Of a stretch of 37,570 nucleotides of DNA, positions 7,558 through 30,338 are shown piece by piece. Position 1 is the first letter of the stretch. Each line of letters opens with the position of its first letter. Source of the stretch: an uncultured Clostridia bacterium (GTDB lineage: Bacteria > Bacillota > Clostridia > Oscillospirales > QAMX01); contig CALWBW010000023.1 of the NCBI GenBank assembly GCA_944376195.1, positions 1 to 37,570 of the forward strand, read 5' to 3'. The position numbers and the translations under genes are program-made. Below the pieces are notes generated by a model. It did not search any database. It was given only the letters and a program-made list of their open reading frames with translations, and was not told the origin of the DNA.

Positions 7558-7977
7558 TCAGCGTCCCTCCGTAATGGCGAAAGAAAGATCTCCTTCGCAG
7601 CACAGTTTCCCTCCTACAGTTGCGCGCGCGTGCGCAAAGTAAAAGGGCGGTTTACTTCTGGTCAGACTTGCGCTGACCTCAATGGTATCGCCCGGACGGA
7701 CCATCTGACGGAATTTTACCCGGTCAAGGCCGGTATAGTAAGCCGTTTTCCCCTCCAATTGCTTGCCAAGCAAAATCGCGCAGGCCTGCCCCATAATCTC
7801 GCATTGAATGACACCGGGCACGACGGGATTTCCGGGGAAATGTCCCTGTAAAAACCATTCGTCGCCGCGGACGGTATACCGCCCGTGCGCTACGCCGTCT
7901 GCGTCTTCAAAAATTTCGTCAACGAGAAGCATGGGTTCGCGATGGGGAAGCAGAGTTTTGATTTCATTTCTATCCAT
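7558..7977 (-). CDS. fabZ: 3-hydroxyacyl-ACP dehydratase
   Basis: A 139-aa hot-dog-fold dehydratase with the signature HFPGNPVVPG; catalytic H46 and E60 are at the expected places. It removes water from 3-hydroxyacyl-ACP in the elongation cycle. GGAGGA precedes the ATG. It sits between accB and accC, mixing dehydratase and carboxylase genes in one transcript, an arrangement common in Firmicutes. No fabA or fabM (unsaturated fatty-acid branch) is visible here. Confidence 0.95.
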   Translation of the reverse strand: MDRNEIKTLLPHREPMLLVDEIFEDADGVAHGRYTVRGDEWFLQGHFPGNPVVPGVIQCEIMGQACAILLGKQLEGKTAYYTGLDRVKFRQMVRPGDTIEVSASLTRSKPPFYFAHARATVGGKLCCEGDLSFAITEGR

Positions 7978-8040
7978 AAAGTCCTCCGATACGCGTGAAA
8001 AAACGTCGGTAGCCGGGACTTTAATCCGGCATGAACCGTC

Positions 8041-8499
8041 TCAGATAATTTTAAACAAGGTCTGCCCGAATTCGACGACATCGCCATTTACCGCGCAGAC
8101 ATCTACAATTTCTCCGTCGCACTCCGCCGTAATTTCATTCATCAGTTTCATCGCTTCAATGATGCAAAGCGTATCCCCTTCGTGAACATGGCTTCCAATC
8201 GTGACAAAGGGAGCGCGGTCAGGCGATGGTGCGGCATAAAAAACACCGACCATGGGGGAAGTGACCAGTTTTGCATGATTGAAATCCATGCCGGGGTCGT
8301 CTTCCTGTGCGGCGGGAGCCGTCTGCGCTCCGGCAGCAGGAACAGGCGAAACAGGTTGCTGGACAGACGGGGCAGCCTGTACGGCTCCGCCCCGTTCCAG
8401 TTTTATGATACAGTCGTTTTCGCGAATTTCCAGCGAGGTCAGCCCGGTCTCCTGCATGAGTTGAGCCAGAGCTTTGACGGTGGAAGGTTTTGTATTCAT
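8041..8499 (-). CDS. accB: Biotin carboxyl carrier protein
   Basis: A 152-aa protein with an N-terminal docking helix, an Ala/Pro/Gln-rich linker (about residues 38-68) and a C-terminal biotinyl domain. The domain contains the EAMKLMNE motif; K118 is the biotinylated lysine. It carries carboxybiotin between AccC and the AccA/AccD transferase. It starts 3 nt downstream of the fabF stop. Confidence 0.96.
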   Translation of the reverse strand: MNTKPSTVKALAQLMQETGLTSLEIRENDCIIKLERGGAVQAAPSVQQPVSPVPAAGAQTAPAAQEDDPGMDFNHAKLVTSPMVGVFYAAPSPDRAPFVTIGSHVHEGDTLCIIEAMKLMNEITAECDGEIVDVCAVNGDVVEFGQTLFKII

Positions 8500-18926: not shown

Positions 18927-20866
<1,940 letters not shown>

Positions 20867-20921
20867 GCTATAGCTGCTAACCCTTGAAATTGCTGGACTT
20901 TTGGACTCTGGAACAAGCGAT

Positions 20922-20943
20922 TTAAGCCAAACTTAAGCCAATT
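20922..20943 (+). repeat. Left attachment-site repeat (attL candidate)
   Basis: Two TTAAGCCAA units in tandem ending in ...CTTAAGCCAATT. It matches 30117-30139 except for one A in the spacer. It lies about 55 bp after groEL. Confidence 0.6.
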
Positions 20944-23080: not shown

Positions 23081-23761
23081 TTATTGTCGCAACTCTTTCT
23101 TGTATCGGTAAAAGGTATTCCGGGCAAGCCCTGTTAGCTGCATAACTTCGGCATCGGTCAAGCTACCGTTAAAATCCCGTGAATGCTTCCTGATAATCTC
23201 TTTGGCTGCAATGCTTTTCTTAGTTGTCAACTTTGCACCCTTTGGTTGTCCGATCTGCTTACCGTTCAACCGTGCTGTTTCTATTCCTTCTCTTGTGCGC
23301 TGGTGTAGATCGTCAACTTCCTTTTGTGCCTGAGCAAATGCGGCAATGATTTGTTCCCGGCGCAGCACTTTCAAATACTCATTGATGGCAGCAAGTATAA
23401 TGTCAACACTTGTTCCTGTCATGGGTACACCTTCCGACAATGCCTTCTCATAGGTCGCAGTATCAATATAATGCTCCTTCAAGAACACAAGATGTATTCC
23501 CTTGTTATACAGTTGTTCATATAGTTCAATACCTTCTTCTGCATTACGGCTCATTCTGCTAACGCTGTCAAATACAATCATGTCACCTTGCTTGACTGTC
23601 TTAATCAGCTTTTCAAACTCTTTGCGTCCCTCTACCTTTGTCCCAGTAAAGGCTTCCTGCACAATGATTGCATCCGAGTATTCTGCCAATATATTCCGCA
23701 ATTGCCTGTCAATTGACTGTTCTTTCCGACTTATGCGACAATAGCCGTATGTTTTACCCAT
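23081..23761 (-). CDS. Serine recombinase (resolvase/invertase family)
   Basis: A 226-aa protein. The N-terminal catalytic domain has YGYCRISRKEQS with the nucleophilic Ser near residue 11 and FDSVSRMSRNAEEG near 65. The long helix E comes next, then a C-terminal helix-turn-helix (SLTDAEVMQLTGLARNTFYRYK, about 200-222) that binds the res/inversion site. Resolvases resolve cointegrates or multimers. Here, beside a Rep-like gene, it suggests a plasmid past. AGGTGT precedes the ATG. It is not a large serine integrase. Confidence 0.93.
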   Translation of the reverse strand: MGKTYGYCRISRKEQSIDRQLRNILAEYSDAIIVQEAFTGTKVEGRKEFEKLIKTVKQGDMIVFDSVSRMSRNAEEGIELYEQLYNKGIHLVFLKEHYIDTATYEKALSEGVPMTGTSVDIILAAINEYLKVLRREQIIAAFAQAQKEVDDLHQRTREGIETARLNGKQIGQPKGAKLTTKKSIAAKEIIRKHSRDFNGSLTDAEVMQLTGLARNTFYRYKKELRQ

Positions 23762-24164: not shown

Positions 24165-24193
24165 ATTATAGCATAATCGAAAAGATATGTACA
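24165..24193 (-). promoter_or_regulatory. Promoter of the 64-aa RHH gene
   Basis: An extended -10 TGCTATAAT (TATAAT at 24165-24170 read on the minus strand) lies 17 bp from TGTACA (24188-24193). The -35 hexamer is the centre of the first palindrome. Confidence 0.65.
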
Positions 24194-24260
24194 TAACAAA
24201 AATGGACAAAAAGTTATGTACATAATTGTACATTCTACCACTTGAATGTTATGTACATAA
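24186..24260. promoter_or_regulatory. Three TATGTACATA palindromes (operators)
   Basis: Copies are at 24186-24195 (TATGTACATA), 24214-24225 and 24249-24260 (both TTATGTACATAA). A partial GTACAT lies at 24228-24233. The outer copies overlap the -35 of the minus promoter and the spacer of the plus promoter. Confidence 0.75.
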
Positions 24261-24270
24261 CTGCTATAAT
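24242..24270 (+). promoter_or_regulatory. Promoter of the 89-/229-/235-aa gene set
   Basis: TTGAAT (24242-24247), a 17-bp spacer and TATAAT (24265-24270). The spacer contains a palindromic operator copy. Confidence 0.75.
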
Positions 24271-24276
24271 ATAATC

Positions 24277-24373
24277 AAGCAAGAGGGAACAGGGAAACGC
24301 ATTCCCCAGTAGGCCAGCGGCACGAACGGACTCACGCCCCTGTTCCCAAAATAAAACAAAGGTGGTAAATGAT
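24277..24373 (+). ncRNA. Structured 5' leader of the 89-aa gene
   Basis: GGGAACAGGG (24285-24294) and CCCTGTTCCC (24338-24347) form a perfect 10-bp stem near the 5' end of the transcript. It encloses a 43-nt GC-rich loop with further pairing potential (GGC/GCC segments). No T-run follows, so it is not a terminator. It may be a cis-regulatory RNA or a separate DNA site; the class is not recognised. Confidence 0.5.
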
Positions 24374-26474: not shown

Positions 26475-27383
26475 ATGTCAGAAATAGAACTAAAAGGATT
26501 CCGTGTTAATTGTGATACGGGTGAAACGGAAGAAATAGAAGATGTTTCACGAATTATTACTAAGCAACAAGAATTTGCTATTGCAGCACACAAGGAAGCA
26601 AAAGCAAACAAAGAACACTGCAAACGAAATTCAAATAAGCTGGGAGGCTTTGTGTTCATGCGGACACTTAACCCAAAAAAGAAAATTAGTGCGCAGACAT
26701 TAGGTCGTCTTGCTTATTTGTCTGTTTATATGGATTATGACAATAACAGGCTAATGAGAGGGTATAAGCCAATATACAAGCAGGAATTGAGCAAATTACT
26801 TAAAATCCCTCAATCAACTGTCAACGATTTTTTGAAGGAAACACAAGCGTCTGAGTATCTACGCATTGATGAATACGGCTATATTTACCTATCTGATTTC
26901 TTTTTCAAAGGAAAATCTAAAATACGAAAAAAGATTCAGTTGTTTATTGATCCTATTAAATCCCTCTATGATCGAATTACCATCGAAAACCAAAAGAGCG
27001 GCAGGAAAAGTAGAAATCAGAGCATCAAGCATTTTGGTTATGTGATCCAGTTAGTTCCCCATGTCAACAAGGAATGGAATATTATTTGCCACAATCCAGA
27101 CGAACGGGACATTATAAAGGTATTACCAATGTCAATTTATGAAATCTGCCATCTTTTGAAAGTTAGTCCTTCTCATAGTGATAAACTTGTCAATTCTCTT
27201 ATGAGCATAAGTTTTATCGCAAAGCAGTCAGGCGGTGAACAGGCATTGTGTAACTTCATCAAAGATCGGGCAAGTGGGAAATATCGCATGATTATTAATC
27301 CAGATGTGCTTTATATGGGTGTCCACTCAACGGAAGTTAAGGGATATGCGCAATTTTTTCCTGTCAAATATCCAGATAACTAA
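26475..27383 (+). CDS. Replication-initiator-like protein with two winged helices
   Basis: A 302-aa protein. After a charged N-terminus (about 1-60), residues about 65-150 form a helix-turn-helix/winged-helix unit (YKQELSKLLKIPQSTVNDFLK, then a YLRIDEYGYIYLSDFFF wing). Residues about 215-290 form a second (MSIYEICHLLKVSPSHSDKLV, ending in GKYRMIINPDVLYMG). Tandem winged helices and the 'IINPDVLYMG' ending recall plasmid Rep/RepL-type initiators of Firmicutes. It is adjacent to 17-bp direct repeats and an AT-rich, hairpin-dense region, which fits a replicon. A transcriptional regulator is the alternative. GGGAGG precedes the ATG. Confidence 0.6.
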   Translation: MSEIELKGFRVNCDTGETEEIEDVSRIITKQQEFAIAAHKEAKANKEHCKRNSNKLGGFVFMRTLNPKKKISAQTLGRLAYLSVYMDYDNNRLMRGYKPIYKQELSKLLKIPQSTVNDFLKETQASEYLRIDEYGYIYLSDFFFKGKSKIRKKIQLFIDPIKSLYDRITIENQKSGRKSRNQSIKHFGYVIQLVPHVNKEWNIICHNPDERDIIKVLPMSIYEICHLLKVSPSHSDKLVNSLMSISFIAKQSGGEQALCNFIKDRASGKYRMIINPDVLYMGVHSTEVKGYAQFFPVKYPDN

Positions 27384-27418
27384 ACAAAATAACAAGTATT
27401 CGCAATTTTTCAGACCAC

Positions 27419-27467
27419 TCGCACTTATTCGTTAAAAAACGGGAGGGCAGTCGCACTTATTCGTTAA
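27419..27467 (+). repeat. Two exact 17-bp direct repeats (iteron-like)
   Basis: TCGCACTTATTCGTTAA at 27419-27435 and 27451-27467, start-to-start distance 32 bp (about three helical turns). They lie 36 bp after the Rep-like stop codon. A degenerate third copy (TATTCGCAATTTTTC) lies near 27398. Confidence 0.8.
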
Positions 27468-27557
27468 GCCTAAATCTTTTCAAACACTCCAAAACTCCCC
27501 TGTTTATGGCAATTTGAAAGCGATGGATAATAAAATTTGGTCAAATTCGCCTCTATC

Positions 27558-27875
27558 TATAATACGAGCCGACTTTGTTGGCTCTCCCATTCCCGTAGGG
27601 ACAACCATTCCCCCAAAGGAACAATATATACTATGTGAGGTAATCCCTAATTACCGAACATGAGGCGTTTACGCCGAACACCATCCCGCAGGGCAACACA
27701 AGAGTGCCACAAGACCCAAAACCATACACAGGCTATATGTGTTCGCACACGGGCGAAATGGTTTTGTCTTGCACCTGCAAGAATGGTTTTTATTAACATC
27801 CCCCGCTTTGCGCTTGAAACGCAGCGGGTTATATTAAATGGTTTGCCCTGCGGGATGGTTTAATATAGCATAGCA
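27558..27875 (+). ncRNA. Hairpin-dense noncoding region: candidate large structured RNA or origin
   Basis: TATAAT at 27558-27563 (weak -35) precedes a chain of stems: GAGCCGAC/GTTGGCTC (27566-27584), GGTAAT/ATTACC (27639-27655) and GGCG/CGCC (27664-27675). A perfect 17-bp long-range pair joins 27680-27696 to 27843-27859. A 14-bp bulged pair joins 27710-27725 to 27758-27771 around a TGTG-ttcg-CACA hairpin (27738-27749). Further stems are TCTTGCA/TGCAAGA (27767-27782), CCCGCT/AGCGGG (27802-27828) and ATATTAAA/TTTAATAT (27831-27866). No credible protein is encoded. It may be a large structured RNA, a single-strand origin or an oriT. Confidence 0.6.
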
Positions 27876-27903
27876 CAATTTATTTTGACAAAGGAGATTT
27901 GCA

Positions 27904-28296
27904 ATGTATCAAACACTGACCACAAGAGAAAATGACTTCCGTGATCCCGCTATTATCAAACTGGATTTGAAAAACTATCTCAACAAAACTTTCTTTGACA
28001 GCAACACAAAGGCCAGTGGAGCAATCCACAAACGGCTTGAAAGTGTATCGCCCGATTTGTACGCCGCATATCTTCAGTGCGCAAAGCTGAATCGGGATGA
28101 AATCAAGAAGTCATTGGAGCGGAACACATTCGACAACAATTTCCACAAGGCGAGTTATCTGCTCGGCATCCTGAAAAGGTATTCGGCGGCTGATACCACA
28201 CAGCAAGCACCGAAGCTGACCTATGCACAGCAGCGTAATCAAAGCACACTTGCACCGGGCGATATTCCAACGGTATCGGAGGATGAATTATTTTAG
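27904..28296 (+). CDS. Uncharacterised 130-aa protein
   Basis: Not recognised. The N-terminal about 95 residues look helical and soluble (AIHKRLESVSPDLYAAYLQC, then NFHKASYLLGILKRYSA). The C-terminal about 35 residues are Gln/Thr/Pro-rich and probably disordered, ending in the acidic SEDELF. The 'YLLGIL+RYS' segment is faintly like the C-terminal part of some plasmid replication proteins. AAAGGAG precedes the ATG. It lies immediately after the structured region, which may be its 5' leader. Confidence 0.75.
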   Translation: MYQTLTTRENDFRDPAIIKLDLKNYLNKTFFDSNTKASGAIHKRLESVSPDLYAAYLQCAKLNRDEIKKSLERNTFDNNFHKASYLLGILKRYSAADTTQQAPKLTYAQQRNQSTLAPGDIPTVSEDELF

Positions 28297-28691
28297 TTCT
28301 TCTATATGGCTCATTTTGACGAGCGGTAAAAACTTAAAATGCTCATGAACATGGTTATATCATTGCTTTTCCCCAGGAGGGCAACCGTGCAAATAACCAC
28401 AAATACAAGAATAGCTGTTTTCGCATCGGGGGCGCATCGGGAAATAGCCTTGTTTATGGCGTTTTAGATACACTTTAGCGTGTTAAAGAGTCTTGAAATA
28501 AGGCATCGGATCGAAAAATATTACAGAGCGGTTTCGAGTAAATGAGTTAGTTTACATAAATATAAGATTGAAAGACAGTAACAAGACAACATACAGTAAC
28601 AAGATCACGAAAAGGAATAAGACTATATGAAAGAATATAAAGTTCAAAGATTAAAAATATGGTCGGGGGCTGGAAACGGAAGGAGTGATCT
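28297..28691 (+). other. Noncoding control region upstream of xis
   Basis: Holds two CGCATCGGG copies (28422-28430, 28433-28441) with a third partial copy near 28503, and two ACAGTAACAAGA copies (28575-28586, 28593-28604). A 26-codon frame at 28387-28467 starts with GTG after GGAGG, and a 33-codon frame at 28627-28728 overlaps the xis start; either could be a leader peptide. Control regions upstream of Tn916-type xis genes are similarly long, so these repeats may be Xis or regulator sites. Confidence 0.45.
28575..28604 (+). repeat. Tandem direct repeat ACAGTAACAAGA
   Basis: Two exact 12-bp copies at 28575-28586 and 28593-28604, 18 bp apart start to start, about 90 bp before xis. Confidence 0.75.
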
Positions 28692-28886
28692 ATGCTTACT
28701 GTTCCCATTTGGGAAAAATCAAATTTGACGCTGGAAGAGGCCGCAGCTTATAGTGGCATTGGCATTAACAAAATTCGTGAATTGACAAATCATGAAAAAT
28801 GTCCGTTTGTGCTTTTCATCGGAAACAAAAGATTGATCAAGCGCAAATTATTTGATGCTTATACTGAACGAGCATATTCAATCTAA
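28692..28886 (+). CDS. xis: Excisionase, Tn916 Xis-like
   Basis: A 64-aa protein with the Tn916-type layout: 'VPIWEKSNLTLEEAAAYSGIGINKIRELT' and the basic C-terminal 'IGNKRLIKRKLFDAY'. It is a small winged-helix DNA-bending protein that directs the integrase towards excision. AAGGAG precedes the ATG. It lies 73 nt upstream of int, the standard arrangement. Confidence 0.9.
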   Translation: MLTVPIWEKSNLTLEEAAAYSGIGINKIRELTNHEKCPFVLFIGNKRLIKRKLFDAYTERAYSI

Positions 28887-28959
28887 GATATGGACAAGCG
28901 GACTTTGAGAAGATATAATTATTACACTATCCAAAGTCGCTTCCCGAAAGGAGGCTATC

Positions 28960-30114
28960 ATGGGGAAGCGTAAAGACAGTAAAGGCAGAGTATTAAAATC
29001 GGGCGAAGGGCAACGCCCTAATGGCACATATGACTACCGTTATACGGATCGCAACGGCAAACGACAGCGAGTGTATGCAAAAACGCTTGACGAATTGCGC
29101 CGAAAGGAAGATGACATTCAAAAGGATATTCTGGATGGGATAGACAGTTCAGCCGGTGAAATTACGGTTGTAGAATTGGTCGAGCGATATATTAACTTGC
29201 GCCGTGATCTAAAGCAAAACACACTAAGAGGATACGGGACTTCATTCAACCGTATCAAGCAATCAGAATTCGGGCGGCGCAAAATTAAGAATGTCAAAAA
29301 ATCCGATGCAATGGCGTTTTTCATTTTCCTGCATGACTCCGGGCTAAAGCGAAACACAGTAGAGCAGGTAAACAATCTGTTGCGCCCTGCATTTGAACAG
29401 GCCGTTGAGGATGACGCAATCAGGAAGAACCCGTTTAAATTCAAAGTGTCTGACATTCTTCCTGATGATTCAGAAAAACGGACTGCTTTAACAAAATCCC
29501 AGCAGGAAATCTATCTTGCGTTCATGCGTGACTATTCCAGCGGGAATTATTTTGACGATATTGTGATCCTGCTACATACTGGACTTCGGGTATCGGAGCT
29601 TTATGGGCTTACAACGAAAGATGTGAATCTTCAGGAAAGGCGCATTTCAATTAATAAGCAGTTGTGCAGAACCGGGGATCGTCCGTACTTCGTAACTGAG
29701 CCAAAAACAAAAAGCGGTATAAGGAATATCCCCATGAGCGATCCCGTATATATGGCGTTTAGTCGAGTGTTACAGAATAGGCGAACTCCCAAAGTCGAAA
29801 TGATGATTGACGGTTATGCTGGTTTCCTGTTTCTGGACAAAGAGGGAAAACCAAAAGTTGGTATGCACCTGCAAAATCATATGCGGGGAGCATATAAGCG
29901 GTTTGTGGAACGATATGGGAAGATCATTCCAAAGATTAGCCCCCACGTGCTGCGACATACATTCTGTTCCGACATGGCGAAAGCAGGGATTGATGGTAAA
30001 TCATTGCAGACTCTTATGGGACACTCCAACGTAAGCGTGACGTATGATGTTTATACTCATGTTGACTATGACGCTGTTGAACAAGCGTTTTATAAGGCCG
30101 TTGCAAACACCTGA
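28960..30114 (+). CDS. int: Tyrosine-recombinase integrase, Tn916 Int family
   Basis: A 384-aa protein. An N-terminal arm-binding AP2-like domain (residues about 1-60, with GTYDYRYTDRNGKRQRVYAK) is followed by a SAM-like core-binding domain (about 68-160) and the catalytic domain. Catalytic residues are visible: R210, K251, H329 and R332 (SPHVLRHTF), H355 and the nucleophile Y365. It integrates and excises the element by strand exchange. AAAGGAGG precedes the ATG. Its stop is 3 nt from the right attachment repeat, as expected for an element-terminal int. Confidence 0.96.
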   Translation: MGKRKDSKGRVLKSGEGQRPNGTYDYRYTDRNGKRQRVYAKTLDELRRKEDDIQKDILDGIDSSAGEITVVELVERYINLRRDLKQNTLRGYGTSFNRIKQSEFGRRKIKNVKKSDAMAFFIFLHDSGLKRNTVEQVNNLLRPAFEQAVEDDAIRKNPFKFKVSDILPDDSEKRTALTKSQQEIYLAFMRDYSSGNYFDDIVILLHTGLRVSELYGLTTKDVNLQERRISINKQLCRTGDRPYFVTEPKTKSGIRNIPMSDPVYMAFSRVLQNRRTPKVEMMIDGYAGFLFLDKEGKPKVGMHLQNHMRGAYKRFVERYGKIIPKISPHVLRHTFCSDMAKAGIDGKSLQTLMGHSNVSVTYDVYTHVDYDAVEQAFYKAVANT

Positions 30115-30116
30115 CC

Positions 30117-30139
30117 TTAAGCCAAAACTTAAGCCAATT
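30117..30139 (+). repeat. Right attachment-site repeat (attR candidate)
   Basis: TTAAGCCAA, then a short spacer and CTTAAGCCAATT. It is identical to 20922-20943 except for one extra A. It begins 3 nt after the int stop. Confidence 0.6.
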
Positions 30140-30338
30140 GCCCGTAGAAGAGCATAAATTTGCGTAGATTTATGTGATTTCTGAAATAATCACAAAAACA
30201 ACATTACGGATGAATAGTTCTTATTTTTGCAAATATTGCTTATAAATTGAGCAATTTCAACGAAAATAGTTCGGCGATATAAGTGTGGGTTTCCCTTGGG
30301 CGGCATGTATTAATTCCTCCATTTTTTCAAAGAAGCTG
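30140..30338. other. Intergenic stretch right of the element
   Basis: A+T-rich, with no open frame or promoter that I find convincing. A GTGATTT...AATCAC inverted repeat lies near 30175-30193. It was probably part of the groEL downstream region before insertion. Confidence 0.4.

Follow-up and report, generated by a model that had tools for sequence, protein, structure and literature searches.

The GOLLD and ROOL RNAs are found in phages and prophages, often by tRNA islands, and many GOLLD RNAs are >800 nt long (PMC12286853). The stretch considered here, positions 27558-27875 of the window (the whole 37,570 nt of DNA analysed), shares with them a location in a mobile element and nested long-range stems, and the original prediction likened it to these and similar classes, although it could not match it to any one of them. 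The covariance search which that prediction proposed does not bear the likeness out: the Rfam models gave no match at gathering thresholds in the window and none at E<=5 in 27380-28960, so the stretch is neither GOLLD nor ROOL. It differs from them further in having a conserved core of 128 nt, against the >800 nt of many GOLLD RNAs, in the lack of a tRNA cluster (no tRNA was found in the window) and in the lack of any phage structural gene among the proteins scanned.

A closer likeness is to cis-regulatory leaders, i.e. attenuators and riboswitch-like RNAs. As in these, a structured 5' region stops shortly before a ribosome-binding site, mutually exclusive pairings surround a hairpin with a run of five U, and pairing is kept by compensatory change. 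The stretch departs from described leaders in having no Rfam family, in having a promoter, a terminator and a ligand that are candidates only and in adjoining a plasmid-type origin within a mobile element. Its closest counterpart in action appears to be the structured leader RNA, a known kind of element, although the family itself appears to be new. What can be offered is a candidate structured leader, absent from Rfam 15, for which the comparative support is direct and real but thin, coming from two copies.

Our reading, to which we give slightly better than even chances, is that the stretch is a structured RNA read from the plus strand, the 5' leader of the gene for a 130-aa protein directly downstream. 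It would act as RNA and in cis on that gene. It may also switch, because both homologues bear two near-identical 3' strands that compete for one 5' strand. The features on which this reading and its alternatives draw are collected in Table 1.

Table 1. Features of the integrated element around the structured stretch (window coordinates)
Feature	Position	Strand	Basis
attL-like direct repeat GGGCGGCATGTACTAA, groEL 3' end, left element end	20851-20866		16-bp repeat with 30297-30312
Rep-like replication initiator, 302 aa	26475-27383	+	PHROG 9501, 1.3e-24
Iteron-like repeat 1, CACTCGCACTTATTCGTTAA	27416-27435	+	direct repeat after rep
Iteron-like repeat 2	27448-27467	+	direct repeat after rep
TATAAT just ahead of first hairpin; -10-like or part of A+T-rich origin	27558-27563	+	sequence
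Hairpin GAGCCGAC/GTTGGCTC, one G·U	27566-27584	+	folding
Hairpin with GA/GA internal loop (ATGT.GA.GGTAAT / ATTACC.GA.ACAT)	27633-27661	+	repeats, folding
Hairpin GGCGTTTACGCC	27664-27675	+	folding
Domain closed by perfect 17-bp stem (27680-27696 / 27843-27859)	27680-27859	+	repeats, folding
Conserved structured core, 39 pairs, 7 helices	27715-27842	+	covariance model, compensatory pairs, RNAalifold
Proximal 3' strand ATGGTTTTG, partner of 27717-27725	27758-27766	+	
Terminator-like hairpin TCTTGC-ACCT-GCAAGA, then AUGGUUUUUA	27767-27782	+	two compensatory changes in L045
Distal copy ATGGTTTTT, able to displace proximal strand, includes U5 run	27783-27791	+	same doubling in L045
Terminal hairpin of core	27793-27837	+	
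Sigma-70-like promoter TTGTCA-18-TATATT, extended -10	27862-27891	-	consensus match only
Ribosome-binding site AAAGGAG	27890-27896	+	sequence
130-aa protein, predicted helical, L045 orthologue (40%)	27904-28296	+	
Tn916-type Xis	28692-28886	+	PF09035, 1.2e-22
Tn916-type tyrosine integrase	28960-30114	+	PF00589, PF02920
attR-like direct repeat GGGCGGCATGTATTAA, right element end	30297-30312		16-bp repeat

The stretch is carried by an integrated plasmid-like element of ~9.46 kb (about 9.5 kb) in a gut Clostridia bacterium, inserted at the 3' end of groEL. The sequence GGGCGGCATGTAYTAA is present at both ends of the element, and the insertion restores the end of groEL; in two relatives of the same genus (G001, G002) the 3' end of groEL is uninterrupted and followed by a terminator. 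Besides the 302-aa Rep-like and 130-aa proteins, the element encodes a serine recombinase (23081-23761), several unknown proteins, Xis and Int. The last two match Tn916 families, Xis through PF09035 and the integrase through the Tn916-integrase DNA-binding domain PF02920, and so make up a Tn916-type integrative module. Scans of the element proteins turned up neither a relaxase nor a transfer gene. The Rep resembles RepL-like replicons of the Firmicutes, in that its relatives are carried by phage-plasmids and small plasmids and mostly have a direct-repeat pair after rep. An element of this size at groEL, with no conjugation genes seen, sets the locus apart from both the Tn916-type modules and these replicons. 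The layout of Rep, paired repeats, folded leader, small gene, Xis and Int was not found described in the literature searched, the coverage of which was incomplete, so that this is weak evidence for novelty.

The hairpins do not seem to be the origin of replication. From the layout, this is probably the iteron-like pair at 27416-27467, 90-140 bp upstream of the stretch. The relatives of the Rep are found on plasmids of 6.7 and 11 kb and on Clostridium difficile phage-plasmids, and 12 of 16 have a direct-repeat pair of their own directly after rep, as judged by exact matching, some of the pairs being short or possibly due to chance. Imperfect pairs could also be read by eye after rep in L045, L043 and L048, which brings the layout to almost all of the relatives examined. 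Small plasmids and the phage-plasmids of C. difficile are likely to share this origin layout of Rep and repeat pair, and this Rep family marks a likely origin type for them; a published search found no origin for several other C. difficile extrachromosomal elements (PMC6807378). The Rep itself was assigned from its PHROG match, from the plasmids and phage-plasmids that carry its relatives and from a weak RepL match in one relative (L006). Its profile found no match in the PDB, and its AlphaFold model is poor (pLDDT 54). Repeat pairs that follow rep and differ in sequence between elements were noted in L007, L010, L012, L026, L031, L041, L042, L044 and L050. In L047, L031 (HNH-like) and L049 (GIY-YIG-like), endonuclease sequences seemingly come right after the origin region, again as read by eye.

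That the stretch is structured beyond chance is clear. When perfect inverted repeats with arms of 7 bp or more are counted, its ~300 bases hold 11, where the original prediction had claimed at least eight inverted repeats. In 100 dinucleotide shuffles the average was 2.96, no shuffle came up to 11, and the longest arm was 10 bp. Among perfect inverted repeats within 250 nt, the 17-bp pair is the longest of the entire 37.6-kb window, and it lies exactly where it had been placed, as do the pairing of 27710-27725 with 27758-27771 and the hairpin at 27767-27782. The UUCG-type cap then proposed gives way in the consensus fold to a three-way junction with hairpins at 27726-27742 and 27743-27756. Folding z-scores are -6.15 and -5.59 for the plus and minus strands as RNA and -7.67 and -7.50 as DNA. 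Being strong for both molecules and both strands, they separate neither RNA from DNA nor one strand from the other. No protein-coding signal was found in the stretch. A 67-aa ORF within the structure (27660-27863) was judged spurious, having no family match and losing its frame across the indels to L045.

Evidence that the pairing matters comes from a homologue. A profile search with the Rep led to L026, whose Rep is 48% identical, and a second element in the same genome, L045, has a Rep that is 50% identical and the gene order of the window: Rep, paired repeats, a hairpin-rich stretch, an orthologue of the 130-aa protein (40%), Xis and Int. A covariance model built from the window core alone (27715-27842) matches L045 at 50.1 bits (E 5e-10), exactly where synteny would place it, compared with 23.1 bits for a model of the same letters without the structure. 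In the alignment of the two, 97.4% of the pair cells hold standard pairs, and 12 of 39 pairs are changed on both sides yet still paired, a count reached in none of 500 shuffles but biased towards the tested structure, to which the alignment was fitted. When the register is slid by 1-3 positions, only one or two such pairs remain. RNAalifold, left to predict a structure for itself from this alignment, arrives at 29 pairs, of which 9 are compensatory. Taken with the 12 compensated pairs, this makes selection on base pairing in the ~128-nt core well supported, as judged from two sequences. The original prediction had looked to homologues for compensating changes, and L045, which retains the pairing with altered letters, is the reverse of the outcome that would count against it.

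The same comparison cuts down the single ornate RNA of ~300 nt that was first envisaged, as only the core is kept and the flanking hairpins vary. The window adds five hairpins 5' of the core and the 17-bp closing stem; L045 closes its core with ACCATT/AATGGT instead and bears a second domain on the 3' side of the core. In the window, L045, L026 and L043 alike, the interval from the paired repeats to the next small gene contains hairpins. In L026 and L043 they stand at the same position ahead of unrelated small genes, the covariance model recognizes no core in either, and in sliding-window folding only those of L026 reach a modest z-score. The core is single copy in each of its two genomes, and no further members were found by the covariance models in ~450 genome searches (overlapping sets of 13, 391, 29 and 21, including the genus and family of the window host and the genus of the L045 host). 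At the nucleotide level, no homologue of the stretch turned up in plasmids, phages, viral contigs or 99 related genomes. The other covariance matches L054 and L055, which fall within coding sequence (leuC-like and other), and L061, with 74% GC and no element genes, were judged to be due to chance.

The link to the gene downstream is conserved, as seen at two loci. The structure occupies the space that separates the origin from the 130-aa gene with its good ribosome-binding site, and in L045 the orthologous gene again comes directly downstream. The protein itself has no match in Pfam, PHROG, NCBIfam, PADLOC or the PDB, its structure model (pLDDT 67) has no fold match at E<=0.001, and searches with it gave no useful relative; one weak match, L004, was a false one.

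The doubled 3' strand makes an attenuation switch ahead of this gene plausible. The 5' strand of the first stem, AAAACCAT in the window and CAGAAAC in L045, has two possible partners in both homologues, a proximal one (GTTTCTG in L045) and a distal one (GTTTTTG in L045). These flank a 6-bp hairpin which is followed in both by the conserved TGGTTTTTRTTA, with its run of five U. Pairing of the 5' strand with the proximal copy would leave the hairpin and the U-run free, and transcription would end or pause; pairing with the distal copy would take up the U-run and let transcription reach the 130-aa gene. Candidate triggers are Rep, the state of replication, the small protein itself or a ligand. 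The predicted preference is opposite in the two homologues, proximal pairing being better by 4.7 kcal/mol in the window and distal by 3.8 kcal/mol in L045. The hairpin is weak as a terminator (27767-27791), such hairpins numbering 3 against 1.4 expected. Some stems had been noted at the outset to exclude each other, with a hint of switching, and this now has its counterpart in L045. If the leader is a switch, it would provide a testable link from replication of an integrated plasmid-like element to expression of an accessory gene. A much bolder proposal, which we regard as a long shot, is that it represents a new class of structured RNA among the integrative replicons of Clostridia. A switch by strand exchange, next to an iteron origin, would here couple replication, through Rep binding or unwinding, to expression of a small accessory gene, so that its product would appear only from an excised, replicating element.

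The choice between RNA and single-stranded DNA, and between strands, is only weakly decided. RNA is favoured. Within the plus-strand helices, G·U outnumbers A·C by 9:2 (9:1 with the window and L045 alone), whereas chunks taken at random from the window give 25:29 when the setting is stricter; the excess depends on the threshold, ranging from 14:8 to 1:1. It weakly favours the plus strand and fits RNA. Folding energies show no preference for either strand or for RNA over DNA. The TATAAT on which the original prediction drew in favour of RNA is present, but it has no good -35 and is not called by the promoter scan, which found 4 matches where 3.0 are expected by chance. One of these, the minus-strand match at 27891-27862, points into the stretch and might give an opposing or antisense transcript.

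The alternative that we take most seriously, unlikely as we think it is, is a signal in single-stranded DNA next to the origin: a plus-strand site for primosome assembly or single-strand initiation (ssi). In plasmid pAMbeta1, ssiA lies downstream of the ori (PMC5703833), which gives it a precedent. The stretch likewise lies just downstream, by 90-400 bp, of the iteron-like pair next to rep, where a theta-type origin is probable from the layout, and the plus strand carrying its hairpins would be the one displaced, should replication proceed rightward from the iterons. The DNA folding z-score of -7.67 would suit such a site, as would the GNA and GNNA loops, which are stable in DNA too. Against this, L012, L047, L050 and L042, relatives of the Rep with the same origin layout, have no such structure at the matching place, which weakens the case, since the replicon would then have no general need of it. 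The DNA origin that was originally put forward as the alternative to RNA probably adjoins the stretch, but the same relatives show that the layout can do without a structured region. Moreover, the structure extends to the ribosome-binding site of an orthologous gene, and G·U pairs, which outnumber A·C, occur in its stems, both of which set it apart from ssiA of pAMbeta1 and other primosome assembly sites. An oriT, or a single-stranded-DNA promoter of the Frpo kind from which the small gene would be expressed as the element enters a recipient, is very unlikely given that the element proteins tested yielded neither a relaxase nor a transfer gene and the plasmid records no match. It draws some credit from the variability of the small gene after the structured stretch, which is not the same in every element (L026, L043), a trait of establishment genes (PMC8708921, PMC11541004).

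If the stretch is RNA, it could also be a free-standing noncoding RNA of either strand, with its ends closed by the 17-bp stem and acting in trans or antisense to the leader. The closure of the domain is perfect, the minus-strand RNA folds too, and a minus transcript from the promoter match at 27891-27862 would begin near 27855 with the 17-bp arm. However, the closure is lost in L045, no clear terminator would define a 3' end on either strand, and the G·U bias points to the plus strand; we consider it quite improbable. That the hairpins have no function, being due to chance or derived from repeats, is hardly credible. Modules around ACCATTCCCGYAGGGA are duplicated in the region, an ACCAT..CCCG.AGGG module recurs both there and in L045, and the flanking hairpins differ between the homologues. 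Recent duplication alone, however, cannot yield compensatory changes across stems, and the core is single copy per genome; the compensatory pairs largely refute this explanation. The structured leader RNA of the 130-aa gene remains our preferred reading.

Other parts of these elements also carry repeats and folded sequence. Repeats of TTAAGCCAA lie just inside both ends (20921-20943 and 30113-30138) and again at the right end of L026, and resemble the arm sites of integrases. Ahead of xis, 28300-28690 holds repeats of the forms CATCGGG.. and AGTAACAAGA.., partly common to L026, L043 and L045, which are possibly binding sites for Int and Xis or a transfer-like site. A second nested structure, without a counterpart in the window, is found in L026 between the small gene and xis (7930-8070 of that locus), where an 11-bp perfect stem, CCCGCCGCTTT / AAAGCGGCGGG, closes two hairpins (z -4.41). 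In the window, 24186-24355 contains several copies of an operator-like palindrome, TTATGTACATAA, followed by a long nested hairpin, GGGAACAGGG...CCCTGTTCCC (z -4.49), directly before an ORF at 24362, and this is possibly a second structured leader or a regulatory site of the same element.
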